Of a stretch of 64,000 nt of DNA, positions 953 through 49,900 are shown piece by piece; position 1 is the stretch's first letter, and each line of letters begins with the position of its first letter. The stretch is from Tribonema minus. Its lineage: Eukaryota; Sar; Xanthophyceae; Tribonematales; Tribonemataceae. The DNA lies in NCBI GenBank assembly GCA_017506865.1, contig JAFCMP010000524.1, positions 558,001 through 622,000 on the forward strand. The letters are read 5' to 3'. Both the position numbers and the translations under genes were made by a program. Under the pieces are notes generated by a model. It was given only the letters and a program-made list of their open reading frames with translations. It ran no database searches and had not been told where the DNA came from.

Positions 953-3900
953 GGCGGACTAAGGTTGCGGGATGCGGAGGCAACGCTAATGGCGCTAGGG
1001 GTGCACTCGGACACTGGGAGCCTCACATTTGAGTCTGCCACTAGCAGGTGCGGGAAACAATTGCAGTGTACATGCAAGTCCATGGGTGCGCGTGCACACA
1101 CTGGGTCATAACCTTTGGCACTGGATCGAGCATCAAGTACTATGTACTTCAAGTGCTCCCAGATGTGCAGTGTGCAATGCCTGAACACGTGCACAGCAAA
1201 AGGCATATCACATCGGTCCAGACAGCTAAGTCGTAGGTAACTAATATCTAAGAAAAGAGGAACGGGGATGACCGTATAGCTCTTACAGGTTCCATGACTT
1301 TTTACACTACTGCAATTATTCCAAACCTTCTTTTGAACCCCGCTTGGTCGATTTGGTCAGACGCACAGTGCTATGCCAAAGCACATGCTCTTGTGCAACG
1401 TACGCTGAATACTGCAAATGAGACGCACTCCTCTCTGTGCTGATGCTTTCATTGCCGAAAACCTACACACCTCGCACTTGACGTTCCTTGACAGAGAGCC
1501 CGGCCGATGGCCTGGGGTGCATGTCACATTTTGGGGCGCAGATTACATTTCGCAAGTCTTCATACTTCCTTAACTTAGTTATGCACACTCATCAGCTCAG
1601 CTTCTTCTTGACTTTTGAGATATGACTGTACAGTCAAAGCCTGGGAGCGGGTGCATTTCTACCTCGGTATACAAATTTTATGCCTGCTCGCATTAAGCTG
1701 ATTTATAAATCTTCACCTGACTGCGTCATCAGCGACACAACAGCTCTCGCATTATGAATGCACCAACGCACCTCAAAAATCATCGTGATGTGCAGATTAC
1801 GACGACATGTCCCACAATTCACGTTTCATGCAGCTGCCGTGTACGATTTCCGTGCGGTTCCTTCGTGTTATGTGCAGTCCACGGTGCGAGCACACAGTCA
1901 GAGTGGCCCGGCCCTTATGTTAACTTCTCATAGATTGAAGAGCTCTGGCATAACTGATTGTGTAGGACACCTCCCACGCCAAAAGCACTCATATACTGAA
2001 ACGGTAGTTAAAGTGCCAGAACAAGCCCTGGTTGACAGAAGTGTCTCCATGCCTCATGTCTTGACGACATGTACATGGGTGCCCCATGTTCTAGTAATCA
2101 CTCGACTGAGTCTCTTCAAACCCTCACTCGATTTGCATGGTCAGGGTTGTGAAACAGCTGATGGAGCATAGTGCCTCTCAAGCTCACAAGCAGCGTGCAT
2201 CTCAAGCCTTGCGCTTCAAGTGCTGATGCTTTGTACAAAGCACTGCTGGAACATGATGGCACCCTTGGATAACATGAAAGCACTTTTCGTGCCACTCACT
2301 TCCAATTTGCAAGCACACCCGTTCACCACCTGGCTGCATCATGACACCCGAGCTGACCCACCAGACCCCGTCAGGAATGCACAAACCGCTGGTATGGCTG
2401 ATGAAACAGAGCAAATAGCGCCTCTTAAGCCTATGTCATTTCGTAGGGGGCTAAGTGTTGCTATTGCTTCACGGTACTCAGCCTGCTGTAATTTACACAA
2501 CACTAGCTGCACCGGTTTGCCAATGTCGGCTCTGACTCATGGCGAGAGATAATTGGCGTGGCTGAAAGATCAAGGTCCCTCTCAACTCATGACGATAATT
2601 ATTACCGACATGTGCATACGCATGGCAGTGTGAGCGCTGGTGCTCAGACTACTAAAATTGAGCACCATGTAGTTGTGCCCTGATGCCATTGACACCTCTG
2701 ACACTTTCAGCAATGCGAGAGCTCTGACACGTGCAGCAATGCTGGAGCACTGGCATGGCTGATGGACAAAGCTGTCTCTCAAGTCATTGCGATCATATGA
2801 CCGACATACACACATGCATCACAGTGCTTACGGCTGCCACATACCAACATACAACACTAGCTGCATCTAATGCCATGATAACTCCGAATCTATCAGGGAT
2901 GCGAGAGCATTGGCATGGCTCATGGACCAAGGCGCATCTCGAGTCATTGTGATCATATCACAGACATGCGCACATGCATTACAGTACCTGGGCTGCTATA
3001 AACACGCACTACTAGCCGCACTCTAATGCCACTGATCAGTGATCATTCTGGCTCTTTCAGGGATGCGAGAGCATTGGCATGGCTGATGGACCAAGGCGCC
3101 TCTCAAGCAGCTATCTCAGAGTATGGGCACGCGAGTTTGAGTCCAGACCAGCAGTCGGCGCTGGCAGATGCCTTCAACACGCTGCAGAAACGACATCACA
3201 ATGGTGAGCCAATGCTTGAGCTGCAGATGCCTTCAACACGCTGCAGAAACGACATCACAATGGTGAGCCATCGCTTGAGCTGCTAGTGACCACGTGCATT
3301 GGAGTACGCACTCTGACGTGCATGAGTCAGCGGCATCGCAGAGACATGATTGTGTCTTGTGTTACATGTACTTCAATTTGAGGTACGTTTTTGCCCACCC
3401 ACAGTATGCAGGCATTTGTTGCGATTGTGCGGGCCATGTTGAGCTCCACTGTGAGCTGTGTTTACCCCTAGTGCGTGCACGAAACACTTTCACGCGCCAA
3501 TGCACAGCTTGATGCCAATTTCGGACCTTGCAGCACATGCACTATCAATAGTACCTCAGCTCACATACTTCTTTGTGCAAGTATGGTGATACGCCTGTGT
3601 GTGTCGTGCGGTGCCGTGAGGTGCAGGGTGGTGCATGCAAGCCGACTTGACGGTACTTGAAATACAAATTCTGAAGTACATGTTTTGAGGCGCAACACAC
3701 GGTGCTTTGAAATACATGTTCTGAAGTACATGTTATGCGGCTATTACGCCCACCTCTCTTGTGCAGGTGTGACGATAGGGAGTGCACTGATTGACTGCGA
3801 CAGCTACATCAAGGGGATGGCGGTGGTGGCGCAGAATATTCTGGAAGTCTCTGACAGGTGACACATATCCCGCACTGTACCTCTGTGCACCACGAACTTG

Positions 3901-6900
3901 CCATGCCATGCTGACAGCAGAACGGTAGTAAAAGCAGTATGTCGCACCCACCTCATATAGTTGGACCCACTTTGGGATAACATGCCCTTCAGTCGCAACC
4001 ACGTCAAGTTAGCGCGGCATGTGGTTTGTGTGAGCCCAGATAGAGGTCATGAAGCCGTGCTCTGCAGTGCTGCATGTACACCTCAGAAGCACGAGCCATC
4101 TTCAACTTTCCCAAATATATTACTTCTAAGAATCTTGAAGGATACACATGTGAAGAGCCTCAGCACCCATGACTTGCCAAGGAGTGAAGTGGCCTGCAGC
4201 TATCAGCACTCTAAATTTAATGATTGTATGTCTGAATCACGCATGTACAACTCAACGTACCTGTAGCTGCACCTGTAAGTTGGTATGAAAGCAGGACATA
4301 CCTTGCCATGGACTGAAGTTTGCATGAGAAGCTACAGGGCCACAGGTATCACCCTCTCACCCTCACACACAGCCAAGTACGGTGTGCGCATTCCTTGCTA
4401 TGCCCAGTTTCCAAGTGTGCTATACTTATTGATGTACGAGCTCGCTTGAAAGATCTTACTGCATACAAGAGAAGCTATAGGTGTAAGCGCAAGGGCTGGC
4501 TGAATTTGTTCCATCTGATTTCGGTACGCAGTGACTGTCATGGGCGACGATTTCTTCAACCCACAATGTGCACGTGACCTGCACGTACGACCTTTGTGGA
4601 GGTGTGCACACACTGCATACCCTAGACATCTAGCGCCACCATTGTTAAACATGGCGATGGTGCTGGCACCCCACTGACTTTGTCTTCACATCGTTGTTAC
4701 TGGTGCCTGTCTTGTTGCTAGATAAAGTGATCATGATGTCGATAACAATGCAGGTCGTGAACACTACCTCTGCCATCTGCACACTGCAATCAGTGGTGCC
4801 CACGCCCATGTATATGCTCATGCAATGCCTGTGGCCTTCTGTTTCGCTGCTCCGCAGTGATGTGGTGTTGTTGGCGGTGAGATATCCCAACAAGCGCGGG
4901 AGGGCGCCCAACAGCCTCGTATGTGAGTGACTCTGCAGCAACAGCAACACCATTGCAGAGAATCATGGTGAACTCCAATTCCTCCAACAAGGCTTCAACT
5001 TCAACAAAACATCTCCGACACGCCTGCATAGCTTCATGAAGCCTTTGTGACATCAGCTGCTACACTCCAGCGCCTTCCAACTCCTATGCCTACATATGTC
5101 ATGCAGTAGGGTGTTAGCGCGTGCGCTGGAAATTAATGCTGGCAAGAATGCAAGGCTGTCAAGTGACGTCTGTGCGCTGCTGCCCACATTTGGAGTTATA
5201 TCCACAGTTATCCATGTATGCTGAGTTCATCTAAGGCCTGAACTCACAACTTGAGTCAAAACAGCCAGTACCTGCATGTGTTAGAGATCAAGGGCACGGC
5301 ATAGGTGTACTGTACAGTGGAGGTGTTTTATGCATTTGCGGTTTGCACAAGAATGGCAGCGGCATGTAGCGCCTTCCTACTGAGGTGCCATCTCTGTGGC
5401 TTGGCCCAATACATCTGTGCAGCAGGGGAGGGCACCCAACAGCCTTGTATGTGAGTGACTTTGCAGCAACAGTGACATCGTTGCCGAGAACCATGGTGAA
5501 CTTCAACTCCTTCAACAAAGCTCCAACTTCTACACAACATCTATGACCGCGTGCATAGCTCACGAAACCACGGAGCCTTTGTGACATCACCTCTTGCACT
5601 CCAGCCCTGCCAACTCTTGATCCTACGTGCGCCGTGCAGTAGGGCGTGAACGCATGCGCTGGAATTTTTCCGTGACAGGAATGCAAGTTTGCCAAGTGAC
5701 CTCCTGGTGCGGCTGCGCACATCTGAAGTTATACTCAAAATTATCCATGCATGCTGAGGTCGTCTGAGGCCTGAACTCACAAGTTGAGTCACCATCGTCA
5801 GTACCTGCGTGTGCTTGACTTCAAGGGCACGGTGCTTGTGTACCGAGTAGTCGAAGTATTGTGCCCTTTCACCTGATGGCCAACTGTTAGCAGCACTTGG
5901 CGCCTCCCTACTACGAATGAGTGATCTTAGTTCCGGTGCCATATCTGTGGCTCGGCTCAATACATCTGTGCAGCACCTTGATTTGTCATGACGTAGAGGC
6001 TCCTGAAAAATGAGTGGAGTATGTAAGAGTGCCGTTAAGCTCTGTACCTCTTATCTCTTGCCTGACTTATCTGTATACAAGGTGTGCCGCAGCAGGGAAT
6101 CAGCCACATGAGTGAATAGCTCATACGGTGTTTGCGCATCATTCACATCAGTCTTGCACATGACCACAGGATGATGCTCCAAGTGCAAGTGACCCAGCCC
6201 TAGCTATTGCCTCCATGTTGCATAACGCATGTGATTGCCTGCTCATCCAACTGACACGATTAATGCCCAAACTTATCTTTTTTGACAATGAATACTTTGA
6301 GAATGCTGGCTGTTGCATTGGTAGAATCAGCATAGCATACGAAATTGAATGCAAGAGCTCATGGCTTTGACATGGCTCTGAGTCAGTCAGTCACTCACTC
6401 ACTCACTCACTCTATGTATATTCCTAAGAGCCATCGCTGCATGCAAGTGCTGACTGTGATCTGTGTGGTGTATGCCCTTTGCAACTGTCACAGTAATTGG
6501 GCGGGCCAATGCAAGAGCTCACGGCATCGACTTGAATCACCTCTTTGACGTCTATGGCGGCGGCGGACATCCCAAGGTAACGTACTGCATGATTTGGTGC
6601 ACATTGCTTATGCATCCAAGAAAGGGCTTGCTTTGGCTTATGAACAGCCACAGTTGCTCCATGGCACCAGTTTTACTGCAACGCTAGGTGAAGCCTGGCC
6701 AGCAGAGGCACGGCGGGCAACCAGTCCTCCAGTCATATATCGCCACAGTGAGTAACGGTGTGTGATTCCACTTCCTCTGCCAGCCACAAGTGGGCTCGAA
6801 CTCGAGCGAGGCAGGCGGCAGGAGGAAGCAGAAGAGGTATCAGAAGCAGCGACAGCGCCATCTGACCAAGCGGAGATGCTGGGGTTACGCCAGGTGGTGA

Positions 6901-9900
6901 CACTGTCAGCGGCTTTGATGCCGCTCCCCCCCCATACAAGCACAACGGCAACATATGAAAATATGAATTGCTAAAGTATTATACATTAGCCTTGTGTGCC
7001 AATCTGCTGCCGTCTGCTCAGGGCAGCAAAAAGGTGTCAAAGCCCTGCGTACATTCCATGTGATTGTAACAGTCACGCTGATGCAGCCCCTCGAGTGCTA
7101 CGGCTGAGCTGTTACACCGAGGATCACTGCAGTTTCTTGGTGCCCTTCGCCGCGTCTCATGCCTCCCTGTACCCCAGCAGTGAGGCAGGGATGGTAATAG
7201 AGCTGGCCCACGCACTGGCCCTGTCGCTTGCTGGTGGTAACTGCACACACCTGAAAGTAGCTGATGACACGGCAGCAGGCTCGCTCGCTCAAAGCGATGC
7301 GACGATAGCGGCGTTTCAACCGGCGTTCGGTGAAGTCTGTGGCAGTGCCCCGTGCTCCCAAAAAACCTGCTGCCGTGGCATCAGCTACTTCAAATTCCAG
7401 CTGCGTGCAGTCACCACCAGCGAGCGACAGCGCCAGTGTCTGGGCCAGCTCCTCCATAATGCCTGCCTCACTGCTGGGATGCAGAGGGACACGCGGCGCG
7501 GCAAAAGGCATCAACAGGGAGCCGTAGTGATCCCCAGTTAAAAGCTGAACCTATACAGCCTGTCAGTGGCCAATTGGCGGATGCCGCCGCCAGGCAGCGC
7601 ATCGCGGCGCTGAAGGCTCTGGTGCACCGATTCATTGCACAGCAGCATCAAGTCCTGTAAGGAGCACGGTGCGGCGGCCAATGCGGAAGCCGTAGTTATT
7701 TCCAAGCAGCGACGGCTGCAGTGGACGTCATCTGCTGTCCGCAGGCAGGTAGTGGTGGCGAAGGAGGGTTCATGGTGTTTCTACAAAGGCGGAGGTCTTT
7801 GCGTTTGCGCGGGTGATGGCCTCGCTCGCCCACACATGCGGTGGGCACAGGCAGCGGTGCATCGCAAAGGTGGCCGCCGCCATCGACAGCGTCATGTCGC
7901 TTCATGTCATGTCACTTCGTGTCATGTCACATCGCGTCACACCGATGCTGTTGTTGTGGTGCGTCATGAAGATGGCCGCCGCCATTGACAGCGTCATGTC
8001 ACTGCATGTCACGTCGCGTCACACCGATGCTGTTGGCCACCCCCAGTGCCTCCTGAGCTCGCATCACCTCGTCCGCATCCGGACTGCTGATGTAGCCGAG
8101 AAGGGGGGCAAGAAAGCCGCCGCCACCACCTGCCTGCAGAAGGCAGGAGGAGATGCTCACTGCAGCCCCTGCTGCTTGGATATGACTACGGCCTCCTCAT
8201 CGGCTGCCGCGCCCTTTTGAAGGCTGCTGTGCCATGTACTGGTGCGCCAAAGCTTACAGTACTACGATGCACTCCTTGTCGGCGGCACACCATTTTTTCA
8301 ATTTAATTTCTGGTTCCGCATATTTTTTTTATGTTTTTTAACGCAATAACATTTGTTAAATGTAATTGTTGTTGACGCCAGTTGCCCATTGGCCTAAGGC
8401 CACCGCTGGTTGCCTTTTCAGCTTCAGTCAGATGGTGGCCAGCAATGGTTGGTTTGCATGCACGTCCTAGGATTACAAAGGGTCACTGACTGGTATTGCC
8501 ATCTTGTTTGCGGTTATCATCTGGTTGAATCATCAGTCGCGACGGGGAATGAGTGTCTTGACTCGCACTCGAAATGACCCTCTTGTGCGTTGTGGTGCCA
8601 TTTTGTGTGCAGGCATCATCCGCAAGTTTGCAGTTCTTTTACTGAAAACAAGGTGTCCCCTTTCAATTACTGCTCGCTTAGGGTGCGAAAGACCCCCTTG
8701 TGCCTTACTGTGCCATGCCATTCGCAGGCATCATCCGCAAGTTTACAGTTCCACAGATCAAAAACAAAATGTTTAATTTTACCTTTATTATTTGATTAAT
8801 TCTCGCTCAGGGTGCAAATGATCCACTTACGCCTCATCATGCCATTTTATTTGCAGGCCTCATCCGCAAGTCTGCGCCTGGACCACGACGAGGACTTTGA
8901 GCGCGTGCCCGGCATCATCCGCAAGTTTGCAGTTCCATCAATCAAATATGAGTTGCTCGATTTCCCCCAATTACTTATTGCTCAGGGTGCGAATGTCCCC
9001 CTTGTGCCTCATTGCGATGTTTGATTTTCAGGCCTCATCCGCAAGTCTGCGCCTGGATCACGACGAGGATTTCGAGCGTGTGCCTGGCATCATCCGCACA
9101 TTTGCAATTCCAACAATGACAATTAACTTGCGCAATTTCCCTAATGAATGCTCGCTCAGGGTGCGAATGACCCCCTTGTGCCTCATTGCGATAATTGATC
9201 TGCAGGCCTCATCCGCAAGTCTGCGCCTGGACCATGATGAGGATTTCGAGCGCGTACCCGGCAAGGGCCCCAAGGGCAGGCTCACTGCAGAGGAGGTGGT
9301 GGAAGGTCTGGTGGACAGGATTTGCTGCGAGCAAATACAGCGGCAGGAGAGGGCCATGGACATTATGACAGCGCCCGTGCTGACGTGCGACCCCTCTGAC
9401 AGCATTGACGAGGCTGGACGGTGAGCCACTTATTGAAGTATGCTACACTTCAAGTGTATGTACACACCTTACTTCTTGCAGTATGCTGTACTTCAAGTGT
9501 AGGTACAGATCACTGCAAGGTATGGTGTCATGTGACGATGCTGACGTGTGACCCCTCTCGCAGCACTGACCAGGCTGGACGGTGAGCTACGCAATACTTT
9601 CAAACCTCTAGGTTTTCAGCAATTTGCCCAACTAGAGGCGAAAACCCCAGAAATTAGCCAAGGGCCACTGAGAAGGGAAGCGGGTCACAGATACTTAGTA
9701 TGTATGATTTGAAGTACTTCGAAGTATACACATTACTTCAAGGTATGGTGCCATGTGAAACGGTTTTCACATGCATGCATCAACGGTGGTCTCCACGCCC
9801 TCCCATTCTGATGTGGTTCTGCTGACGAACGTAGCCTCCATGCAAACACGCCACCGCCATGATGTCATATGTCCCTGATGGTGTGTCTGCACCGGGCGTA

Positions 9901-12900
9901 ACATGCATTACTGCAGCTGCTCTGCGAATCGCTAAGTGTGGTGTTGATGCACTTATGTATATGTAGGTATGTTCAGGTACGTGCACAGACATTGCTGGTC
10001 ACACGAGCCATGGTGAATGCCAAATAGGAGTGCTGTGATTATGGAGCACTGTGTGTTGATGTAGGTATGCACAGGTACTTGCCAGAGATGGCGCGTAGTG
10101 CCATTGTCGAACAGGTCGCAGGTAGCGCGAGAAAAATTTTGGCAAGTACGCGTACGAGTATTAATATACTGGTGAGAGCGGCTACAGGTACGAGTTTAAC
10201 CTGTGCTCTGAGACAACGGGTACGCATATACCTGTGGAGCAGGTTATTCAAACAGTTTTTTTTGCCTGTTTCAATGGGTTTTCGTTGGCTTTCACCTTAT
10301 TCTTTGCAGCAATGTCCTTTTTCATGTATCACCTTACGAGACGCTTGAATCTGCTTTGGGGAAATCGTCTGAGGCTCGTTAAGGCTCGAAAGCCGTGCGT
10401 GCCTTACTACTAGAGCACGAAACACGGGTGCAATGTACTGATTCAGATATGAAAGCATTGAGCAGCTGGCATGCACAATGTAAATGCAGCTTACTGACAT
10501 GCACATCTCTTTGGCAGTAGCTCTCGCCAGCGCAGCGTGGCGTTGATCTTTGAGTCGGTGAAACGAAGCTCGCTAAAGCTCGCTATGAGAAGCCACTGCG
10601 TCCGAGCCAAGCCGCTACGGGGTCAGCTATATAGAAGATACGTTCTCTCGTCGGTTCTTGCTCGCAATCGTCGCAACGCACGCTCACGCTCCTTCCACTT
10701 TTGTCAAAAACTTCGGCCAAACCCAACTTCAACAGATTTATTCTCGTGAAGCTTGCGAAAACAATGTGTACGAGATTTTCACTCGTACCGCGCGTTATCA
10801 GCTGTGGACCAGTGCAGGTTTTACTCGTTGCCTCGCACAACAGGTTACGCGTACGAGTTATTCCGTGGCCACGGGTACGAGTTAAAACGCGCTTCAAAAC
10901 CTCGTACCTGTACACGTGCCACAGGTGTACGCGCTACCTCTGGTACTTGCACATACATCGCCGGTCACACGAGCCATGGTGAATGCTTAAAAGAGTTGCT
11001 ATGGTTTTGGAATACTGTCTGAACGTGCCAACTCAGATACTTGCACGTCCATTGCCTCACACGAGCCATGGTGGATGCTACATAGAGGTGCTATAGATTT
11101 GGAATACTGTGTTGATGTTGCAGCACATGTGCAGGCAACTAACTTTACCGTTGTTTTCCTCTGCTTGGTCTTCAGGAAACTGGATCGCTACGGCATTCGC
11201 GGTATGCCTGTGTGCAAGAAGGGAGAGTCAACTGTCGTGGGTGTCATCAGCAAGGACATAATCCGAAAAGCGCAGGGGGTGAACCAGGGCAACAGGCCTG
11301 TGAGCGGTTGGATGGTGACACACATTGTTGCAGCACAGGTGGACCAGACCATTGCGGAAGTGGAGGAGTTGTTAGTGATGGTGAGTTGCTGAGTGAGTGA
11401 GTCTTTGAGTAAGTGAGTCCTCCATTTTGTGGTGCAGCACAGGTGGACCAGACCATTGCGGAAGTCGAGGAGTTGTTAGTGATGGTGAGTTGAGAGAAAG
11501 TATGATTAGGGTAGCACTGAGTGTGCACGTGATGGCACAGGTGGACGGAACCATAGCAGAAGTCAACAAATTGTTAGTGACAAATTGTTAGTGATGGTGA
11601 GTTGAGAATGTATGGTTTCTGTAGCGCAGAGTGTGCGTGTGATGAGTCTTCGCGAGAATGAGGAGTGTAGGGCTCATTGGTGGTCATTGATACATTCCTT
11701 TTCAGTGATGGTGCAGGAGCAAGTGCGTGTTGTAATGATGCCGCTGAACAGCTATTGCCAACTCAATGAAGGAGTAAGTGATGAGTCAGTGAGTGAGCGA
11801 GTGAATGAGTCCTTGAGTGACGGGATGCTGATGTTTGCGTGCGACCCTGGCCGTTCTGTACGAGTATACGCGACCTCTGCAGAACAGATTGGCAATGTTC
11901 CCACAAAGCTGGCCATTGCGAATGTGAACTAACTGTCATAATTTGGCCTTTGTCGTGTCTGTATGCGACAACCTGTATGTACAGCATTGCCCGCAGAAGG
12001 AGCTAACAATGTTCTAACATACTGGGTGCTTCTGCATTGAAGTACTCAACCTCAAGTGTACTTTCTGCGCCTTTGCCATGATTTTTTGTCGACAGTGCCT
12101 CCGCTGCACCATGCTGGCAGACCGTACATGCATTGACAAAAGTGACTGACATGATTGCGTCACAGAATCATCTGATCTACATTATGTGCCAGTGCTCCAC
12201 TGGCAGTACTTCTCTGTCAACAGGATCGCACACACTGCTACATGTGTGTCTCAATCAATGGCGACCCCTTTGAGAAGTGATTTGTTGATCACTGCCATGT
12301 GTTGTGCCACAGGATGACATAGGATTGCACACACTGCTACATGCCTCAATCGATGGCGACCCTTCTGAGAAGTGTTTTATTGATTGCTGCCATGTGTCGT
12401 GCCACAGAATGACCTAGGTCGCGTGCCAGTGCTTGAAGGGGGCAAGCTGGTGGGGCTCATCACACGAACAGACCTCCTGCGACAGCACCAGTTTTACGAC
12501 GGGTGAGCACAATGTCCTTTTCATTTCAGTGCCTTCAGTATATCATCTAAGGAAACATGACATTCAGGCAACATATTGTTGACAATGCCTTCGGTGGATT
12601 ATGTGAGGAAACATGATTATCAGACAACCTATCAGGGACTTTCCAGCTCTTGCTGGCCATGCTGTCTCAAATACACAGCCACGTAGAAAATCGCTCAATA
12701 TCATGAAATGCTGGCATATGTTAAACTGTCACGCGCAACTGCACTCGCTACGGCCGTGATGCCCATGCTGCGCTTGTTGTTGTGCCACAAGTTGCGCATA
12801 ACCATTGCTGCAGGAAACGCTGTTGTTTGAGGTGCATCGTGAAACAGCATACATGAGTAGCACCCAGTGCTGTCAGCTATCGGGCAGAGATTCACAACTG

Positions 12901-13740: not shown

Positions 13741-14019
13741 TTTATGACACCACACCCGTCAGTGCTCTTTATCAGTCAACACATACAGTCACGAGGACAA
13801 TCGTCACATGCCTGTGCAATCCCAGCCTGCTTCTGATGTCCTGCTCAACTGCTGTTTGCTCAACTGTCAGACGTGCTGCAGAATAACCCTTTGCTTGGGT
13901 GCACATTACATTTCGCGAAAGTGTGTTGCGTGGACGATGCCTCAAGAGAATGTGGGTTGAACGCAACACAGCAACGAACCTGATCCGAATCTGCTTTCAA
14001 ACACACCTGAACACCTGAA
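13741..14019. other. Downstream flank of the DHH-CBS gene
   Basis: No coding signal supported. It probably contains the 3' untranslated region of the upstream gene. I see no clear polyadenylation motif. Confidence 0.4.
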
Positions 14020-14372
14020 CTTGTATTTTATCAAGGCCCCAGGGGGTTGCCTGTCCTATGCATTCCTAGGGTTTGCTCCTACGCAACAACTCGTCTGTGC
14101 GCCGCCCCAAGAGCTTGGACACCGGCGTTTTCACAGAGCAGTGATGCGCTCTGCCAGCTCCTGCGCCAACGCCATGCTCAGCTCATCTGAATGCTCAGCA
14201 ACCCAGCCTTGTGCGACATGGCTGCCCCCCCCCCCCCCAATCAGCACAGTGGTGAGCGCATCGTTGCCCAGCCATCCGAACGACTCCTGGGCTGATGGCA
14301 TCAAGGCTCAAGATGACGTCAAGGTACTGGTGCTAGCCTCTGCGTCCTTATCCACCCCCGGCAGGACTTGAA
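14020..14372 (-). mobile_element. Decayed 3' end of the retrotransposon whose better copy is at 14801-17900
   Basis: This aligns along its whole length with 14810-15230: CTTGTATTT, AGAGCTTGGACACCGGCG, CAAGATGACGTCAAGGT and others occur in the same order and orientation. Many indels, a 15-C run at about 14224 and stop codons show that it is an old pseudo-copy. It lies about 430 bp from the 3' end of the better copy. Confidence 0.85.
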
Positions 14373-14437
14373 GTGTATGCTCAACACCGGTTGACCCCTC
14401 ATGACGCAAGAGAGTATGACTGGTGTCATTGACGCCA

Positions 14438-14703: not shown

Positions 14704-14800
14704 TAGCACAGCAGCACTATTTAACATGTGCATGGGTTAGGGGCAGGTGCATGGGCCAGCAATCAGCAGAAGGGAACTTCAAGTTGAACATGCACTCTGC

Positions 14801-17800
14801 ACGTATGGACTTGTATTTATAAAGGCCCAAGGGAGTCCGGGTTGCCTATGCAATCGAAAAGCTTGCGTCAACGCAGCAGCCTAGTCTGCGCTGTGCCCTA
14901 GGAGCTTGGATACCGGCGCCGCAACACAGCCCAGCATTCGCGCTCCACGTGTGTACGCCATGACGCGCTCCGCCAACTCCCGCGCCAGCGATATGCTCAG
15001 CTCAATGAGGATCTGACGCTTAGCTAACCCGGCCTTGCGTAACACATCTGCCTTCCCCCCCCCTGAGCACAGTGCTGAGTGCATTGCCAACTCCTTAACA
15101 AAAAGGCTTGTCTGCTTGCCCAGCCGTCCGTACGACTCCTGCACGAATGGCACAAAAGCCCAAGATGACGTCAAGGTGCCGGTGTGGTGCTTGACCTTCG
15201 CGTCCTCCCCCACCCCAGCAGCATAGCCGTCCGTGTTCGAGGCATTTGTTTTGCCTGTCAGGTACGAGCTCGCTGTGGGCGCGCGCACACTTGTGTCTAG
15301 CACTATTCCCTTGTTACGGTATGCACTGCTAAAGTGCAGACACCCTGGGTCAATGACTGTGTCCGCCCGATACCCCGGTACCTTGAAGACGCTAGCGTCC
15401 TCATTGCGGACAATAGAGACATGGTGCTGTCTCAAGATGCGCTGCAGGCACCGCTTTTGGGCAGTGTGTGTCGCGTTGTGCCCCCGTATGTGCTGGCTGG
15501 GGCAGCTGATCGCATGCGTGGAGGTGGGGCTCACATCACTGCACCGCCATGGGCACACCTCGCCCTGTATGCCCCACCCGTCTATGAAGATCGCAATCAA
15601 AATCATCGTGGCTGCTGCCATACTGGACATGGGCGCCGCACCCGGGCGGTCATTGGCAGTGGGTGGCACGCTCATCCACGCCATTGCCCCGGACGCACGC
15701 TGGCTGCGCAGCTGCGCCAGGACCCGTGCGCTAGCCTGTTGGCGGCGGCGGCTGGTGTCGCGCGAGTCACCAATAGGTGCAGCCTGCGTCGGCTTGCCCA
15801 CGGCACCAGCCGAGGCAGCCTCTAGGTCCTCCACCAGGCAATCCTCGTATTGACGTCGAAGAACATTTGAAAGGCCGGCTTGTAGTCCGTGCGTGAAGTG
15901 ACCGCGCCGGCGGCGGGGCACTACCTTCCTGCAGATTTCATCAGCATAGGCCTCCCAGTCGTCGTCGTCGTCCTCCTGCCCGCCGCTGCAGCTGCTTTCT
16001 TCCGCGCTAGTTTGTGTTTTAGCGGGCGTGGAAGGGGCAGCCGCGGCAGCGGCTTGAGGGCCAGGTACGGTCGCCGCCGCAGCGGCCGCCTCGGCGCCAG
16101 GCACAATGCCGTGGGTGTGTGGGGCTGGCTCAGTGGTCACTGTCTCCATGACGGCAGTTGCGGCGTAGATCGCTTGCACCGCAGTGGGGAGCGTCGACGC
16201 TGCGGCCGTCGTATCTGCTGCCCACCGTAGCAACGATGCTGGGAGCTGCTCGGCCACAGCTGTGCGTGATTTTTCGCCGCCATCAGCTGTCAGCGCTCGC
16301 GTAGAGCGTCGCACGGCCTCGATGATTGGCGGCAGTCCCTGGTCCTCGCGTATTGCGCATGAGTGCTGCGCGAACCAGGTGACTGCGCCGTGTTCGTCAG
16401 TGCCGAGCCTCAGGGCCCCTGCTGCCACAGTGGCATGAATTATTGCCGGCCTCAGTGTTGTGCATGCCTGGGCCGTGTATGCGGCTGGTGCCAGTAGCCC
16501 CAAAAGCGGCATGCCCAGACCGCCTCGTCGCTCCGGCAACCGTGACGCCCGCAGTGGCACTGCGATGTCCATGAGTTCTGGCGGGCCCAAGCGCGGCAAT
16601 ACCAGCACGCTGCCACTGCTGGCTTCCTCATTGTCACCAGCAGTGCAGGCGGCCAGCAGGTGTGACTTCATGGCTGCCGCGGTAGAGCAGCCGTGCAGAT
16701 GCAGCATGCGTTCGAGCGTCCATGCACAGAACCCGTCAAACGCGTGCAACCATGTCTCACTCAAAGCCGTGTCAACGACCCGAGCTAAGAAGCCCATGCG
16801 CTTCGTCAGTGACCTGCGTAGAATGAACTGTGCTGCCTGTAGGTGATGCCGCGCCATTCCAGCTAGCTGCCACGACAATCGCCATGTCCCTGCGTCGACA
16901 AGATGCTTGCTCATGGCAGCGTGCACATAGGCTGGGTGCCCTACCGGTACCCCGACCGACGTAAAGCCCTGACTGGATTCTGGCATGGTGGTGTCCACAA
17001 ACGGTATGTCAAGGGCGCGCAGGCGTGCTCTGGCCGCTTCATCAAACACTGTGCCGCGCATGGCGATGGCCAGCGACTTGTCTGGTCGAACGCGTAGGCC
17101 CCCTGCCGCCAGCCGGCGGATCACCTCTGCCACCCCAGCGGCCGCTGCATCGTCGAAGTAGGCAGCTTGCAGCACGTTGAGGTCATCCAGGAAAGCGCAG
17201 TGCGGGGCTGGCGGTTCCGCTGTGCTGTGGCCGTAGGCCGGCATACTGCCGGGCGTCGTATTCACTCCATCAGGGTAGAAGAGTAGGAAGGCCGCTGCCA
17301 CTGCAAAGTACAGCGGCCCTAGAGGGTCCCCTTGCTGGCACCCTAGGTGGGAGCAGATAATGCGAGCTTCACCGTTCACCTCCACCCGCATCTCTGGGGC
17401 AGTGTCACCACAGTATACGGACTCAAAGTGCGGGAGCAGCTCCGGACAGAAGAGCATAAGCCCCCGCACAATGGCGGCGCGATCCACACTGTTAAATGCG
17501 TTCTCACAGTCCAGTTGGATAGTGGTGCCATACAGCTCGTGCCACACGCGCGCGCGCGCTGCCACATGCTCGACGCCAGACCGGTATCCTACGCCAAACT
17601 GCGACATGGAGGCCAGCAGCCCCGATATCTTGCCCTTGACACTCCGTGCCGCTGTGGACCCGAGGAGTCTGCGCCAGACACTGGAGCAGGCGATCGGACG
17701 CCGCTTCTGTCCTATGCCTGAGAGGGCCGCGGCGCGGAGAAGCCGTTGCGATTGCTCCGGCAGCAGTTCGGGCTCAACAAGCAGCGTCGTGAACACCTTG

Positions 17801-32526: not shown

Positions 32527-32534
32527 CGACCACA

Positions 32535-32967: not shown

Positions 32968-32992
32968 CAACAGGCAGGCAGGCAGGCAGGCA
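32968..32992 (+). repeat. (GGCA)n microsatellite at the TPR gene start codon
   Basis: About six GGCA units end directly at the presumed start ATG (32993), so length changes would alter the leader but not the protein. Confidence 0.75.
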
Positions 32993-38900: not shown

Positions 38901-41900
38901 ATGAAGTAGCATGTTCATCAAAGGTCAATCAGCCACGGGAAGACTCTGGTACCACAATCACTGAAGGAATGCTGCTAGTGTACAACAAACGCAGACTGCC
39001 TTTGTGGCTTAATTCCATGTGCGGTGACCAGAGTCACTGCCAGTGCATACAACAGAAGATGGTTACCCAAGTCCTGAACTCGATGGGTGGCAGCCCAATG
39101 CGTGGCTGCACCAGTGCGCTGCGTCCATTGATTCGCTGTGCAGCTGCTAACATGTGTGGGCTACTACAGATTTACGGATTTTGCATATGATACAAACAAA
39201 GGCATAGTTTGCTGTTGGGACATCTTGAGATTATGTGTATGCCTCAAGAGAGCAGTGCATGCCACTGTATACTCTACGTACGCAGCCCGTGCATAAAATC
39301 AAATTGGGTACAGTAAGCACCACAGGTGATAGCTGCTGGGTGACGCGCTGCTCGTCCACTCAAGCACCTACACCACGTTCAGTAAGCGTGCATACTAAAG
39401 CAGTACTCACTGCAGCACTTCTGCACCACCCCGTAACATCAACCTCAACTTCACATCAGGGGGACGACCGCATGGCCCTGTGCGCCTATGCCATCTCTGG
39501 CCAAGTCCTACCCCCCTGCGATACGGGTGCATACTGAAGCTTAGTAAAGTAGCATTCACTGCATCACTTTAACTTCAACTGCGCATCACTTCGACTTCAA
39601 TTTCACAACAGGCGGACGACCGCATGGCCCTGTGCGCCTACGCCATCTCCGGCCAAGTCCTACCCCCCTGCGACACGGGCTCCGTCTGCATGTTCGCCAC
39701 CCCCCCCGGCGCCGGGGAACGCGCCCTGGACGATAACTTTCTCCAGACCATTCAGATCCAAGACCTTTATGAGCGGCGCCTACGAGGTGACTCTCCAGAC
39801 GTGGTGGCAGCAGGCGCGCAGCTGATCAGCGAGCGGGTCGGCCGCCTTCGCGATCACATTCGTGCGCGGAGAGTCACCATTGAGTTCAGGCTGGCGCTGG
39901 TGGAGGAAAGGAACATTCTTGCGGAAATTTCTGCGCTGGATCCGTGGACCATGAGCTGGTCCAACTGCTGTAACTACGTGCACCCGCGCGAGTTTCACGC
40001 CATGGCGAGGGCCGCGTCGAGCGTCAAGGGGGACACTATACACTACACGTACAGGTATGTGTCATGTCAGACCTATGCAGTGGTATGAAGTTGTAGGTTG
40101 AGATGTCTTTTCTTCTGGCCTGTGGTTGTATTTTACTGTCGGTGTTTCGAGTGGTAGCATCTGTCCATGCACCGGATGTTGTGTGTACATGCGCGTGAAT
40201 TACCAAGTGTGTTTAGTATGAGTGTTTATTCTCATATAACCTTATTTACAAGCTTAAGTTGACTGTTGGCGCTGGTGCCAGGTAGTAGTTGAAGTGTTGC
40301 GTTGAAGCTGAAACTTGAACTTCTGCATCACTCAGGCCGCTTGCTGTGAAGCCAATGTTTTCTTGCATCACATATGTGCTGCTATGGTTGCATATGTGCA
40401 GTTCGCTTACTCTGGAGTGAACAACTTGAAAAAATGATGTGCATGCATGTAAAGCTGCTCTACAATACTCCAAATTGAACACTCATACTCCGCAATTACG
40501 GCATGTGTGTCCTGCATTAATTTCCGACTGTCATTCGAGTCATGCCCTGACTAACCCTAACCCTAATTCTCACCCTAGCATGCCGCTGCCTAGAGCAGCA
40601 AAGCCTATGTCATGTATGATATGATTAGCTGTGCCACACTTCTCAGCGCATTGCCCTCCCATACATGCATGCATGCATTCGTTGTTGAACATCGTTGACT
40701 CTGGACTTCATTGACTTGCACTTGATTGACATCAGTGACAACAACAATCCAGGAAGCCTCACCGCTACTTCATATCTTTCCCTGTGAGTCATTCAAATGA
40801 CAGTATTGTCTTGAAGTTACTGCTTCCCCCTCTTCTTTATGCCATCAGCATGAACTGGGTGCGTGAGATCAAGTGTGCCATGGTGATGGACTATGCCGGG
40901 GCGGAGCCAAAGGAGATGTGGCGCGAGCGCAGGAGGGAGATAGTATGTATGTATGGAGGGATCATTGTATGTACCCTTGCCAATTATTCCTTGCTTACAG
41001 TAGGGCACAAAAAGCCCACATGGCGGATGTCAAGCTTGCTACCAGGATCTCGATGTACCCTGTGACAGCTTGAAAGTGTCTCAATGTGCATGGCTTCTAC
41101 ATGACAATGCCAGATGGCATGTGCTCAGCTTCAAAGGTTGTGCACTGTGTAGCGCATGGCTAGGAGGGACATGATATGGATAGGAGAGACACGTGTAGAT
41201 ACAGATGTATATTGTCAATACGCATGTGCTTGAATAGTACTTTGTTTCACAGACTCTGACAGGCTTGGACAGATCAGGGAGTCGCGCTGCCTAAGGTGTA
41301 GCACACAGGCAAGCTGCATTAACAAGCTGTCAGAGGCACACATCGTTAAAAATGTGCATTACTTCAGGCAACAGATGAGCTGCAGGCAACATCGCTTGAT
41401 GTGTGGAATGAAAAGAAGGTTTTCTAGGCATCTGTCGAGGAAATGCATGGGCCATAGTTGATTGCTCGCAAGTTACAGTACCCTGACAAGGTAGACTGCT
41501 AGACCTTCCCAAGGAACCTCAACACAAACCTGCCTGCAGAGACCCCCCATGACACCCAAATTAGACTGCCATAGCCTTGGTTGTGTGATATTCGTATTCT
41601 TCAGTGTAATGGTGGTTTTGACACTATGTCGCAGTCATGACTGAGTCCAAAGCACAAGTTTCAAGTCAAAAACCGAGGCTGACACCGCATTACTCAATCC
41701 TATAGTAAATGCTACTGTACCAGCACTGTTCTCTGCAATTGAGCATCTCTGCTCTCCTTGCATCTTGCACCGCCTGGCAGATCACAACATCCCAGAAGGC
41801 AATTAATGACCTTCACCGGGGGCTGGGGTGGAACACCCTGCTAGTTGCCCCGCCAGTCGACAATGCCATGAATGTGGTGGACTACTGCCTCTCCAACTGC

Positions 41901-42724: not shown

Positions 42725-43952
42725 GGCCGCAATGCCATAGCGCCAAGGGCAGCATGCACTCACTCAGAACCAGCGGGGCATGGCAACAGCAACTGTGTGC
42801 GTCGCATTCCAACGGGCGATGTGCATCGTCATTGACGTGCATTGTACATGACCTTTGTGTTGCACAGTCAAGGGGGGGGGGCACAACACTGCCTCCTGAG
42901 AGCGATAGTACTCAAGACACGAAGCACCAGAGAGCATCGTGCTCATAGCCAAGGGCATCACTGCATCACCTCGAAGTACATGTACTTTTGAAAAGGTGTA
43001 TGATGCTGGCGATTCGGAACTTCAAGGGAGACGAGACCAGAGTACATGGGGAAGCACACCTCGCTTTTCTCGGGCTTGCACAATAGCCTCAGATGCTTAC
43101 ATAGAAATACCTACAAGCTACTGCCTGTCACAGTCAGGTACCGCAAAAATGCTACTGCATGCAAAATCGAGGCACCACCATGCACACACACCAGCCCCAG
43201 GGTCTTGCCAGCAAATGCAATTGCACTGGGATTCCGTGGTTGCACTGAGCCGCGATCGGGCTATAGTGGCCGCAATAACACAACAGTAGGCCTGGAGGTA
43301 ATCTGGCACTGGCGTCTGCAAATATGAATGAATGGGCACCTGTTTCATTTGCCACCTCTGTCTTCATTGAATGCTCAGCTGTTGCAAACACCATATATGA
43401 TATCACAAGACCTCATCACACGTCAGCAGTTGCCTGGATGCCAAACACTGCTTCTTGGTGTTGCACATGTCATCAATGACTAAAACGTTGCTGTTGCCAC
43501 CCCATGCATGCGCCGCTTGTGACATCTATGTGCACTGTAGTATACTGGGTAGCCGACCATGACATATGCATTGAGTACATTGCAACGCAACGAACCAGCC
43601 ATAAAGTGGAGGCAAAACAAAATCATCGATTCATGGCAGTCATCCTTGGTCATCATCCCTATTTACATGCCCCACATGCGCAGTAAAATGTTGGCTCAAA
43701 CGATATCTGACTGCAGCGAATTGGTCCCGCTTACAAGAGGATGGAACACTGCACCAGTCTCTCACGATTGCCAACTGCCACTGTCAAACTGACACCAGGG
43801 GTATTCATGTATTCCCTGGTGGAGACATCCGATTGCAACAGTTCCACTCTCATCATCAACAGCACTGCAACTTGAAGTACATGTTCGCAGATTCGTTCGC
43901 GCTCCTCCTGCCTGCCATGCGCAGTTACGTCAACATCCGCCCCAGAAAGCCT
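42725..43952. other. Convergent intergenic region, no gene seen
   Basis: This lies between the 3' ends of the TPR gene (+) and VTE4 (-). Short frames here show no domain or consistent composition. A G run (42868-42880) and ACTTGAAGTACATG (about 43871) are the only notable motifs. It should hold both 3' untranslated regions. Confidence 0.5.
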
Positions 43953-46900
43953 CTAATAAGGCATTCTTGATGAGCTGAGGGGGCTGAGCACTGGTTCCGG
44001 TTCTGCCTCGCGGTCATCGGGCTTGCGCGCAGTGATGAGGCCAAACTTCACCAAGTTCAACTTGAAGCCCCGCACCTGCGAAAGACGAACACAAAAACGT
44101 GATGTTAGCAGCAACAGTTGCAGAGAGCATGTCATTGGCTGCTGCAGGAACACCGCTGCAGCGTTTGCTCTCTGATTAGCCCAATGGAGATGTTTTGAGG
44201 TCGCGGATATGTGAGCAAGGAGAGTACTATATTCTGGGACGCAAAGCAAACAAGGTTTAATGTGCTACAGGCAGAGATGGTGCCGTGCACTTTAAGGTTC
44301 TGGGGACAAATTGTCACGACGGCAATGTCTGAGCATGCTATGTCTGGTGCATGAAGTCTCTTCGCACATGCCACTTCCTGTGTCTTGGTGCTTCTCACCA
44401 CCTGGGCCCGCCATCATGGATTGGTACTCCCTGACGATTCATGGATTACCCGACACTTGCCTGTACTTCCTTCACCACAAACTGTGGGCTCACAAACATG
44501 TTTTGGTTTGTTAACCTGTCCCCCAATCGTGCCATGGCATCTTCTTGTGGACACATCGGTGAACATGCATGCTCTCAGGCCCCAGGCGTTTGTGGCGGCC
44601 CCAGACCCTAACCCTAACCCTAACCCTATATATATATGCCAGCAGCATTGGCGGACACGCAAAAACGCAGGAGGCGTGCCTGTTTGACGTATACCGAAAG
44701 TGCCGAGGGCGCTTTGTACGCGCTGTGCTGCGGGAGGGGCATGGGGGTTGCGATAGGGATCTCCCCTTCATCACGGCTGTGGGCGCAGCAGTGGCCAGCA
44801 TCAACACGGTAGGCGGTCACCGAGCAGTGCCCCCGCTGAATGGGGGAATACGTGGGGGCTGCCTCTGCTCACTGCGTGGAGCTCCTGATCCTAACCTTAA
44901 CCCTAATCCTCACTCTAACCCCAACGCCAACGCCACCCTAACCCTAACCCTAACCTCAACCCTAACCCAACGTGGAGATGGACATGGACACATACTGCAC
45001 CGGAGCGCACTGATGGGAACACGTCGACACATGCCGATATCAAGGCGCGCTGATGCAGTACGTGTCAAAGCCCACCTCGACGTTGCGAATCAGCAGCTCG
45101 ACGAAGTGAGCTGGGACTGTTTTATGTGACCGCCTGCTCAATGTCAGTGACCAGAGCTGTGATCACGAGGACGTAAATCCCTATCGCCGTCCTCATGCCC
45201 GTCCCGCAGCCCAGCGCGGGCGACTTATTATGAGCGCCCCCAGCATTCGGTATTCATTGAAGGTGATAACCGCCTGCGCTTTGGCCGTCTGCCCATTCTG
45301 CTGGGATACATGCCTACGTCCAGGGCCGCCACAAAATCATGGGGCCTGAGAGCGTGCATGGTCACAATCGCTGTGATAGTACATGCGCTGGCCACAGAGC
45401 GCTGCATCTTGCTGACATCAGTGCAGCCGTTCTCTTATGGTGCTAGCTGCGTTTGTGTGCACCTCATAGTACTACCACATCCATGTGTCAAAAAAGAAGC
45501 TCATCGTGACCACTGCCAGTGCCAGTGCTTCTCTCATGAGATTGCCGCCTACTGCAGTGGTGCCATGCCGCAGCTGAACTGTCAATGCTGCAGGCCAAAC
45601 TAGGGTTAGGGTTAGGGCTGCATCATAACACGATATCACGATGCGGCTAACCCTCAAGCTAACCCTAGCCCTACCTTCCATGACACACTGCTTCGTTTAA
45701 TCAAGCAAACATCCAGTACTATTGTGTTATCATGTTTGCCCCATCAGTACGTACCATGAGCAGCATTGCTAGCGCCCCCCTGATAATCCCCGGTCCTGCC
45801 CTGACGAGCCCCCTGATTCCCCGCCCCGAGAGCGAACTCTTGATGACCGCAGGCCAGAAGTACTGAATCTTGTCAGTCCAGTCATCACGCCTGACGTCAG
45901 TGAGCCCAGCCTCTTGGCAGTAGGTGACGTAGTCTGCTACGGAGCACCATTTCGGTAAGTAGTATGCCTTGTTGATGGCAGCTAGCAGGCGTTGCTCCTT
46001 TGGCTTCAGGGATTCCTCGCCCTGACGTTCAAATAGAAGGCGAGGCATGTTAGCAGTTGTAGGCGTGCCTGGTGCGGCATTTCAATGGATTGACTGTGGG
46101 AGGAAGGGGTGAGACTTCATAGTGGAAGTAGGTACGAACATCGAAGTACGACTTGCACCTTCAAACAGCTCAAGGGCACAAGTGGCGTGAAAAGACGCAG
46201 GTCCCTTGCAAGTCGATTGCTGCTGCTCAAGCGCTTCTTTCAACTGGTGAATACTTGAAATTCACCTTCCACGTAGCAACAGCACTTGCAGTTGCGATGG
46301 TGCGAGGCAGTTTTGGCTTGCGTAACTCAGCTGCCTGATGTGTACATTGGAGTTATGTGTACATTGGAGCGGGAGAACGTACAGGTATTCCTAGTATCCG
46401 AACTGCTGTTGTGCCTGCCTCAAAGCTGTATTTCAGAGAGTTGACCAGGTTCAAAAGCACATTCTGAGGGTACTCTTCAGTTTCATCTCATGCAGAAACT
46501 CACATTCTACATCATTACACTTGCTGATGCCGTTGAATGGTACCTCAAAGTACAACAATGATGTGAAGCCCTGTCAGAGTGTTGCTGCTTGGCCCATCTA
46601 TTCTAGCAGGCTTGGAACAGCAGCTGTTTGGGGAGTGTTCATTTCAAAAACATCCACGGTTCCAACAGCCAAAAGGTTGCCTTCATTTGCCCATGGCTCC
46701 ATGCGTACTGTTCATGACCTGCTCCGCAAGCCACCTAAACAGCACATTTCTGTACGCCACGACAGCATGCATTTATGGTATGTATGTATGCATGTGCACG
46801 CACCTCCTCCAAGTCCCTGTGGCACCACATAACGATGAGCACCCCGCCCCCACGTCATCTAAATAGCACCTTTCTGTACGCCGCAACAGCATGCAGATAT

Positions 46901-49900
46901 GTATGTATGTATGTATGCCCGTGCACGCACCTCCTTCAAGTCCCTGTGACACCACGCAACGATGAGAACCCTCACCTAAATAGCACACTTCTGTACGCCA
47001 CGACAGCATGCATTTATGGTATGTATGTATGCCCATGCAAGCACCTCCTCCAAGTCCCTGTGGCACCACGTAACGATGAGCACCCTACCACCGCGTCACC
47101 TAAATAGCACACTTCTGTACGCCACAACGGCATGCAGATATGCATGTATGTATGTGTGCACAAGCACGCATCTCCCTCAAGTCCCTGTGGCACCACGTAA
47201 CAATGAGCACCCTCACCTGAATAGCACACTTCTGTACGCCATGACAGCGTGCACGTATGTATATATGTATATGCACATGTATGTATGTATGTATGTATGT
47301 ACAAGCGCGCACCTCCTCCAAGTCCCTGTGGCACCACGTAACAATGAGCACCCTGCCCCCAGGTGCGCACACGCGTGCGAGCTCCCCCACAAACTGCTGC
47401 TTGAGCGGCATGTGCTCCCCACTCTCCATGCTCCAAATGAGATCAAAGCTGTTGTCCTCAAACGGCTGCTCCAAAGCGTCAGCAACCTGAGCACACAGCA
47501 CAATCATTTGCAGCGAGCCTTGAATACTTGACAGTTGCGCGCACAGCAGAAACGGGCAGCACTACTTCAATTGTTTCAGACTTCAAGTCAACTCCAGACT
47601 GGTCGAAGCTGTTGTCCTCAAATGGCTGCTCCAGGGCATCAGCAACCTGAGCACACAGCACAGGCAATGGTAGAGAACTTGAGAAACTTGACAGTTGCGC
47701 AGAAACGGGCAGCACCACTTCGATAATTTCAAACTTCAAGTTCAGCGCCAGACTGGTTCAAAGCTGTTGTCCTACACGGCTGCTCCAGGCCATCAGCAAC
47801 CTGAGCACAGCACAAACCAGAGTCAGAGAACGTAATATAAACTTGACAGTTGCGCGCACAGAAAGTGAGCAGCACCACTTTGAATTAGTTCAAACCTCAA
47901 CTTTGAACTTCAAACAGCTGTGCCCGTAGCAGATTGACACCATATCTGCCGAGATACCCTCAGAGCAGCAGCAGTGGTGCTTGTCTGAGGTGTGCATGTA
48001 CTTATGCATCAAACTCGTCGATCTCACACTGTACTGGCTGCAGCTTTCACAGTCCAATGCTGCTTGCACCACATACAAATCGTCACTTCAGTACTCAGGC
48101 ATGCCATGCCCTGAAGACTACCGGCAACATCAACAAAGTGTGGCTGCCATTGTCATTGCACACCGCTGTGCACGACTGCACTCATGAGACGCCACAACAT
48201 CTGAGAAGCAACATTGAACTGCAATTTGATGATGCAGCCAGCTTGCGCCTGTCGGCCAATCTAACCACAGCGCAAGCTCGTGCATCATGCCTTGCCAATA
48301 TGATGGGCAACAACTTAATATCAAAAGATATTTTCAAGTTGTGATGTGTTTCAGAACTCATTTTCAACAGCACACGGAGGTCCGCTTTCCTGGACAGCTG
48401 CTGGCGTCGGCCCACCGCCTCACTGTGCACTGCTGAGGTACCAAGTTCAATGCCGGAAAGTTCTCACACCTGTCCAATTATCATAAAAGTGTGCTCATAG
48501 GTGACTTCGACAGCGCACCTGGAAGCTGCACTTGTCTGCCAGCCCAGCCTCAGCAGCCAGCTCATTGGCCCTCGCGCACTGCTTGGGCGACAGCGTAATG
48601 CCCTGCATTTTCGTGCCCCACTTGCGCGCAATGTGCCTTGAGCTGCCGCCAATGCCACACCCTACGTCCACCCCCGTCTTTGGTGTTGAGGCTGCATCTA
48701 CACCCACCCCAGCCCACTCCAGGGACTTGTCTATCATCGCAACCTGCAGCATGAAGGTAAGGGAGGGAGTTGGTGGTGGTGAGCTTCTGGTAAAACAGAG
48801 TGAGGTTCACTTTCTTGACTTTCTGGCCTCTTTTCTACTGTTTTTAAAGTTTAAGTCTGCACTTGCACTTGAAGGTACACTCCAGAAACTTCCCCACAGC
48901 AACCGATTTATGGTGTAAGGTTGAAAGACAGAGCAAGGTGGAAGTACAAGTATCCGCAGAAGATGCAACTTCAACAACTTGTTCCACGTAGTACGGCTCA
49001 CATTCCCTAGTGCTACTTTGAGAAAGTAATTCCGCAGGGCGCTGATAGGGTTTTTAATCATGCACATGACCAGGCTGATGACTCACTTTAATCAGTATGC
49101 AGCCCTCGCTTGTGCACTTCACACTTCAAGTAAGTGAGTGAGCGAAGAGTTACCTCACACTAGTTGGAGTGCCGGACAGCGGGACTCAGCAGGATGCTGA
49201 ACAACTTGTGTGCAATTCAACTAAATCTTCAAAAAGGACCCCCTGTTTGCTCTTGGTACGCTCGTCATACCACCACACGCACCAGTTGTGCGCGTTATAC
49301 GCAGCATTTGCAGTGCTGGTTGTCACAATCAAAAGTGTTTCAAAACCTTTCAGCGCACTGAAAATTTCAAAATTGCAACGATGTGATTGATTATTTCAAC
49401 TCAGAATATGGCGCGCATCTAGAATGATGAAAGCAAGCAGGTGGGTGATTGGGCAGAAGCGAAAGCTTTGAGGAGAAATCTGCTGCATCGTGCGACAACG
49501 CAACATCAGTCAGCAGCAACGTTGAAGCAGACGTCTCATTTGTCAATTGCGGGCGTCCAGAGTATGCATTTGAGGCACCCTCTTAGATGTCAACTACTTT
49601 GTTGACAATTTCCTTGCAATTTCCACCCATAAAGTTGCGAAACTGCCAGTCTTTGGGTGCTGAATTTGATATTACTTGTGACTTACGTATGACCACAGAA
49701 GCAAGATTTATAATGGAGCTTTCACATTATTTTCCGCCGCTGACTGTGGCATCCCTCACAGATTTACTGAAGAGTCTATTTTTCTGTTGCGACAGACGTA
49801 GCAAAATGAAATAATGAGGCGCGTTTTGTCTGCTGCAGCCTGTTGCCGTGCTGCAGCCTGTTGCACAACGATGCCGCCGATGGCCCAAACGATACTGTCA

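Follow-up and report, generated by a model that had tools for sequence, protein, structure and literature searches.

Many splice junctions in the xanthophyte alga Tribonema minus lie inside tandem arrays whose repeating unit is part exon and part intron. The arrays were noticed in a stretch of 64,000 nucleotides (nt) of contig JAFCMP010000524.1 (positions 558,001 to 622,000 of the forward strand; hereafter the window), taken to be nuclear DNA, where a first-pass annotation named nine such junctions in three genes. All nine were verified, six with Tandem Repeats Finder (TRF) and three by self-comparison, and at every one of them the array copies the adjoining exon edge. Arrays with long units are likewise anchored on splice junctions in many genes outside the window, and the observation is both right and general among the genes sampled from the T. 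minus genome. We consider it probable, at roughly 0.6, that introns in this alga grow from their ends by recurrent tandem duplication of ~155-bp segments that contain the junction, followed by decay of the copies.

Long-unit arrays are anchored on splice junctions

To avoid ascertainment by the window, loci were fetched by protein family and not by their repeats: ten CCT/Cpn60 and eight kinesin loci formed the main sample, and ten further kinesin loci a replicate. Ab initio gene prediction run without constraints mistook many of the copies for exons, so exons were bounded instead by Pfam ranges, reading frames and hand-set windows. An intron was accepted if its Pfam-supported flanking exons had contiguous match ranges or, in parts of loci L034, L036, L037 and L039, where the model exons complete the gene. 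This yielded 65 introns from 16 of the 18 main loci (none from L033 or L047), 11 from seven of the ten replicate loci (none from L051, L059 or L060) and 11 from the window, 87 in total. Arrays were called long-unit when the unit was at least 90 nt, and spanning when they reached at least 10 nt into the exon; an edge criterion also admitted arrays ending within 15 nt of the junction. Expected counts came from placing each footprint uniformly over the intron and its permissible exon edge.

With the three sets pooled, 43 of 56 long-unit arrays spanned a junction (17.3 expected), and 50 of 56 either spanned one or ended within 15 nt of it (20.9 expected). Arrays called with BLAST in the main sample reached at least 10 nt into an exon in 37 of 46 cases against 16.7 expected, and in the 11 window introns bounded on both sides, six of eight crossed an exon edge against 1.4. 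Because BLAST self-comparison missed a 59-nt array at 3164, an ungapped finder that catches short offsets was written, and 47 of its 67 informative arrays were spanning (18.5 expected). Among arrays judged to be young solely from their intronic part, 26 of 35 were spanning against 9.5. The contrary picture raised in the first-pass annotation, in which arrays are placed independently of splice sites, is therefore overturned for long units. Short-unit arrays (<90 nt) showed no clear excess in the main sample (4/13 spanning vs 1.8, P 0.09), but an excess appeared when the three sets were pooled (8/20 spanning vs 2.6, P 0.002).

Detection bias and neutral turnover fall short of the observed share

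Exons change slowly, so exon copies should remain recognisable for longer and could be over-represented among detected arrays. When simulated single duplications were passed through the same finder, the spanning share rose only from 0.315 to 0.343; at the highest simulated divergence, detection did favor spanning duplications (78/164 detected vs 47/320). A related effect arises because exon edges are never lost, so that intron sequence may trace back to them. Simulated turnover with uniform duplication gave a spanning share of 0.38-0.43 when array density was close to that observed, and of 0.63-0.65 when turnover was extreme; the observed share was 0.77. For multi-copy arrays, 25 of 28 spanned a junction, against 29-67% in simulations over all the turnover rates tried. 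Introducing a simulated junction bias of 6-10 brought the share to 0.75-0.82 at the observed density.

Since the observed share lies above both the detection-bias and the uniform-turnover simulations, something favors duplications that contain a junction. As modeled, a 6-10-fold excess of such duplications accounts for the anchoring, and detection bias and neutral turnover do not. Long-unit arrays occurred at 0.79 per kb of intron. In two stretches of the window where no exons were mapped, their density was 0.04 and 0.13 per kb; these stretches were scored at a slightly stricter threshold and may hold genes.

Duplicated pieces are of similar size, and introns with arrays are longer

The offset to the nearest copy had a median of 160 nt, with the middle half falling at 127-182. 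The duplicated piece held a median of 57 nt of exon together with ~90 nt of intron at donors and ~104 nt at acceptors, and donor (26) and acceptor (20) junctions behaved alike in this anatomy. Spanning arrays had a median unit of 154 nt, compared with 81 nt for non-spanning ones (P 5e-5). Breakpoints differed between events, and several copies of one array may share one.

Introns with arrays were longer than those without (median 828 vs 447 nt, P 6e-5), and shrank to 554 nt when each array was reduced to one unit. This collapse removes 21% of the sampled intron sequence, which supports the proposal in the first-pass annotation that introns grow through these arrays. Donor arrays were present in 26 of the 87 introns and acceptor arrays in 24; 11 introns carried both kinds, against 9.0 when arrays were permuted within genes (P 0.13). 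Junction arrays were present in eight of nine introns of at least 1300 nt, and three of ten introns of 900-1300 nt had none. The L035 intron at 1677-3987 carries an array at each end, with an interior that holds no long-unit arrays.

The arrays are locus-specific: comparing the arrays themselves, not whole introns, only three pairs from different loci were similar among 56 arrays. One of these pairs is telomere-like, one is on our reading a shared kinesin exon, and none is a family. Array load across 16 loci showed no relation to GC content of exons or introns (P 0.15 and 0.63). Load may be regional, as contig C235 holds two genes poor in arrays and C516 two loci rich in them. Duplication of a whole intron was rejected as the source of both end arrays in the one intron tried (L034, 2660-3985), where donor-type and acceptor-type copies are not interleaved. 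Inspection by eye found no AG or GT resembling a splice site where the exon pieces end distally, and this absence disfavors an origin from mini-exons or retro-insertion.

Copies tend to decay with distance, without conservation of frame or splice sites

The copy nearest the exon was more exon-like than the farthest in 20 arrays, less so in four and tied in one (n=25, P 0.002). Rank correlation between distance and similarity was negative in 14 of 17 arrays, with exceptions present, so the decay of similarity with distance that had been described for the window stands as a tendency and not as a rule. Splice dinucleotides were intact in 80 of 101 copies, whereas the divergence of the exon part predicts 81.3 (an earlier count found 82 of 95 retained); they are thus neither destroyed nor preserved. 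Offsets to the nearest copy were multiples of three in 9 of 26 donor and 10 of 22 acceptor cases, with no clear excess. Of the indels in exon-derived pieces, 70 of 77 shift the frame, although low gap costs may have added short gaps. Stop codons in the copies were not depleted (3 vs 5.0 expected, P 0.5; older copies, 3 vs 3.5). The suggestion that the copies serve as decoy splice sites or spare exon ends found no support in the neutral dinucleotides, the offsets or the frameshifts, nor in the co-occurrence of donor and acceptor arrays given above.

Differences between exon and copy were concentrated at third codon positions (0.156 vs 0.085 and 0.066). Because the copies carry frameshifts and are not depleted of stops, we read this bias, together with the parsimony and copy-to-copy results given below, as probably reflecting synonymous changes in the exon itself, which copies of different age have each preserved, with the exon as the repeated template. 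If the exon is constrained and the copy neutral, intron divergence between exon and copy should be twice that of the exon part. The ratio was 2.04 with an uncontrolled alignment baseline and 3.04 with gaps counted in a stricter alignment; since the baseline is uncontrolled and the stricter alignment differs, neither value is relied on.

In CCT-gamma the outermost splice site is the annotated one

The annotated T. minus CCT-gamma, from an array-rich gene, includes no copy, and at seven of eight introns it matches our splice model, which places every copy within a single intron. A 12-nt difference at one donor and six residues at the start set the two apart. In this gene, then, the annotation uses the outermost site of each array. 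Many copies nevertheless look like good sites: the score of the real site is equalled or exceeded by 24 of 50 donor copies and by 12 of 51 at acceptors, and a donor score of at least 5 was reached by 46% of copies vs 2.3% of random intronic GT. We infer that only the outermost splice site is used, probably by exon definition, which fits the one annotated protein.

Proposed junction-templated growth of introns

In the mechanism that we favor, each event would copy the exon edge (~57 nt) together with the adjoining intron (~90-104 nt) and leave the copy on the intron side, so that the protein would be unchanged and the intron would lengthen. The exon edge, being both constrained and repeatedly copied, would thereby act as a lasting template. 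New copies would usually adjoin the exon, and older ones would be pushed inward and decay, resulting in 'conveyor belt' growth from both intron ends. We take the 6-10-fold excess to reflect a higher duplication rate at junctions, a mutational effect; the alternative is a selective filter on interior duplications. The rate at junctions is perhaps tied to transcription, splicing or chromatin at exon edges. We put forward with considerably more hesitation the broader idea that splice junctions, through one of these three, provoke nucleosome-sized duplications, which would make intron growth directional and templated by exons, not random.

Several results weigh against this mechanism or limit its basis. 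The replicate is small and not significant by itself, although in the same direction (2/6 spanning vs 1.0; 3/6 vs 1.3 by the edge criterion, P 0.11). Detection from introns alone under a strict 8-nt criterion, a test that loses the exon part and any array ends that are blurred, gave no excess in the sample (13/44 vs 12.8) and 3/10 vs 1.6 in the window. Simple arrays (at most two pairs, by intronic evidence) also showed no excess (4/21 vs 3.7). On account of these two negative tests and the split by unit length, we conclude that small simple duplications fall almost anywhere and that large, mostly multi-copy arrays sit on junctions. Array load varies sharply by gene, with arrays in all six introns of L035 and all four of L049 but in none of ten in L037; expression level is an unlikely cause, because L035 and L037 both resemble subunits of the CCT complex. 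Many exon borders were read by us and gene-model windows were hand-set: manual setting or correction of borders affected L034, L035, L036, L039, L043, L045, L058 and the window genes. Among these, the donor at 4128 in L035 was shifted once its array was known, and the L034 donor was moved to its annotated position before the final anchoring count. The basis throughout is one species, one assembly and the DNA level.

The pattern of substitutions also contains elements that a decaying copy does not readily provide. Changes assigned to the copies by parsimony remain biased toward third positions after control for base and CpG (odds ratio 2.0, 20 arrays), and the youngest copies show an odds ratio of 2.7 (P 0.019). 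When copies are compared with one another, similarity is higher in the part derived from the exon than in the part derived from the intron (0.826 vs 0.765; 61 vs 21 of 84 pairs; 15 of 19 arrays, P 0.009), in a comparison whose alignment baseline is uncontrolled and whose copies were picked by exon similarity. Third-position differences between copies (0.268 vs 0.15-0.17) are more than the exon's role as template alone predicts.

Among other explanations, we give most weight to a neutral source and sink, in which ordinary minisatellites arise uniformly in introns and look anchored since exon edges are never lost, but we still consider it unlikely. The persistence of edges is a real effect in the simulations, raising the spanning share to 0.63-0.65 at very high turnover, and simple arrays are placed as chance predicts. 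Near the observed density, however, uniform duplication leaves the share at 0.38-0.43 and not 0.77, and 25 of 28 multi-copy arrays lies above the simulated 29-67%; the interior of the L035 intron at 1677-3987, free of long-unit arrays between its end arrays, also argues against it. It is improbable that the inner splice sites function, with long introns removed stepwise (by recursive or nested splicing) and only duplications bearing a splice site tolerated. Strong donor scores among the copies and the presence of junction arrays in eight of nine introns of at least 1300 nt would fit such a role, but dinucleotides are retained only at the neutral rate, donor and acceptor arrays are not paired within introns, and three of ten introns of 900-1300 nt do without junction arrays.

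The third-position bias that survives base and CpG control, and is also seen in the youngest copies, would fit alternative exon ends with a coding function. This reading is nonetheless quite improbable given that only seven of 77 indels keep the frame, stops are not depleted, offsets show no clear excess of multiples of three and the annotated CCT-gamma omits the copies. Mobile introner-like elements or transposon-borne repeats inserting at junctions would share the intron specificity and junction linkage of the arrays, but each array copies its own exon and just three inter-locus pairs are similar among 56, which disfavors such elements to the point that we hardly credit them. We are equally disinclined to see an assembly artefact: the arrays are known from assembled sequence, but the divergence of copies from the exon ranges over 0-30% (5-20% in most), and they carry indels of their own, at many loci and on both strands.

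Relation to known systems

Single duplications that cross a junction are already known. In potato RdRp, Ma, Lan and Niu (2016, PMC4974935) describe a tandem duplication across an intron-exon boundary that carried splice signals with it, and the T. minus duplications likewise cross the junction with its splice signals (43/56 span). The potato event made a new intron, once and in one gene, whereas in T. minus existing introns are lengthened repeatedly at many junctions and in many genes. No new intron from a duplication was found in the annotated CCT-gamma, the one array-rich gene checked. Like minisatellites, the T. minus arrays run head-to-tail with units of tens to hundreds of bases, and are partly amplified with common breakpoints. 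For the brown alga Ectocarpus, PMC12477816 reports that tandem repeats are spread relatively evenly over the genome. The T. minus arrays differ from minisatellites in that they sit at splice junctions with units that include exon edges, and their density is several-fold lower in the two stretches without mapped exons.

Intrasplicing, recursive splicing and stwintrons involve several splice sites nested in one intron. The inner sites in T. minus are kept at the neutral rate only, with no sign of use. Introner elements place repetitive intron sequence in many genes, whereas the T. minus arrays have no family common to genes. The introduction of PMC4974935 lists introner elements as a model. In the titles and abstracts of the literature searched, we found no description of arrays anchored on splice junctions, nor any genome-wide, polarised counterpart of the single duplications.

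Intron lengthening is usually unreadable because the sequence of introns decays. In T. minus the adjacent exon still shows where each piece came from, which makes it possible to count the events, put them in order and date them. The array loci also constitute natural splicing competition assays, in which similar sites in similar contexts are present and apparently the outermost alone is used. A junction bias in duplication, if true, would connect genome rearrangement with splicing or with the chromatin of exons.

Arrays and exons in the window

The following arrays and exons were mapped in the window, with the evidence for each.

2465-3107, plus strand: acceptor array of the DHH-CBS gene before exon 3061-3204; self-comparison at 62-68% identity, with exon start and upstream intron copied.
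3061-3204, plus strand: DHH-CBS exon; reading frame and orthologue alignment.
3164-3283, plus strand: donor array (donor 3204), unit 59; TRF, with two copies 96% alike, the top identity in the window.
4893-5975, plus strand: exception, a 528-bp tandem duplication wholly within an intron of the DHH-CBS gene, 74%; self-comparison and BLAST arrays.
8570-9274, plus strand: acceptor array before exon 9206-9420, unit ~175; TRF (8798-9263), self-comparison and edge search.
9206-9420, plus strand: DHH-CBS exon; reading frame and orthologue alignment.
9378-9590, plus strand: donor array after exon 9206-9420, offset 161; self-comparison (88%) and edge search.
11326-11644, plus strand: donor array after exon 11176-11380, unit 104; TRF (11329-11522), BLAST arrays and edge search.
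12222-12418, plus strand: acceptor array before exon 12404-12504, unit ~97, 15 exon nt; TRF (to 12422) and BLAST arrays.
39390-39679, plus strand: acceptor array before exon 39612-40055; self-comparison (82%), BLAST arrays and edge search, one extra copy with 66 exon nt at 95%.
46680-47364, minus strand: donor array after methyltransferase exon 47312-47488, with four exon-edge copies; TRF (46732-47279), self-comparison and edge search.
47312-47488, minus strand: exon of a VTE4-like methyltransferase gene; translation and Pfam Methyltransf_11.
47430-47915, minus strand: acceptor array before exon 47312-47488 (acceptor 47488), unit ~160; TRF (47443-47855) and self-comparison.

Edge search in the adjacent intron, applied to six of the nine junctions, gave copies whose exon parts measure 41-69 nt and are 78-100% identical, the closest copy lying at a distance of 59-174 nt. 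For the arrays at 3061, 12404 and 47488 the evidence comes from TRF, genome search, self-comparison and BLAST arrays. Within the array at acceptor 3061, genome search found a 47-nt copy of the exon start at 2897-2943 with 94% identity, and in the array at donor 3204, 41 exon nt are copied at 100%. The TRF footprint of the minus-strand array at donor 47312 adjoins the donor, and self-comparison extends it into the exon (to 47360). Of the exceptions in the window, the duplication at 4893-5975 is the clearest with a long unit; the others are a small array at 10926-11127 and a few more.

The gene names given in the first-pass annotation fared unevenly. CBS domains were recovered by Pfam in the DHH-CBS gene, and the DHH part was unmatched in the Pfam scan of the window gene; the orthologue P0121 carries PF02272. 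Aligned with the orthologue from the brown alga Discosporangium, the DHH-CBS exons are 49% identical over the full query of 280 amino acids, and this alignment supports their predicted splicing. The TPR label lacked support, as the protein of 443 amino acids matched no family, and the VTE4 label was checked to the level of methyltransferase, with Pfam identifying an S-adenosylmethionine (SAM) methyltransferase (Methyltransf_11). Rfam at gathering thresholds gave no match in the window.

Three further features were observed. Opposite open frames at 15227-15850 (plus strand) and 51601-52491 (minus strand) have an identical protein start and are probably two copies of one repeated element. Short interstitial telomere-like runs of CCCTAA/TTAGGG occur at 40555, 44605-44630, 44890-44972 and 45600-45665, in introns and between genes. 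A 1786-codon open frame on the minus strand (58569-63926) is rich in GCTGCC-type repeats, and its internal repeats resemble low-complexity coding sequence.

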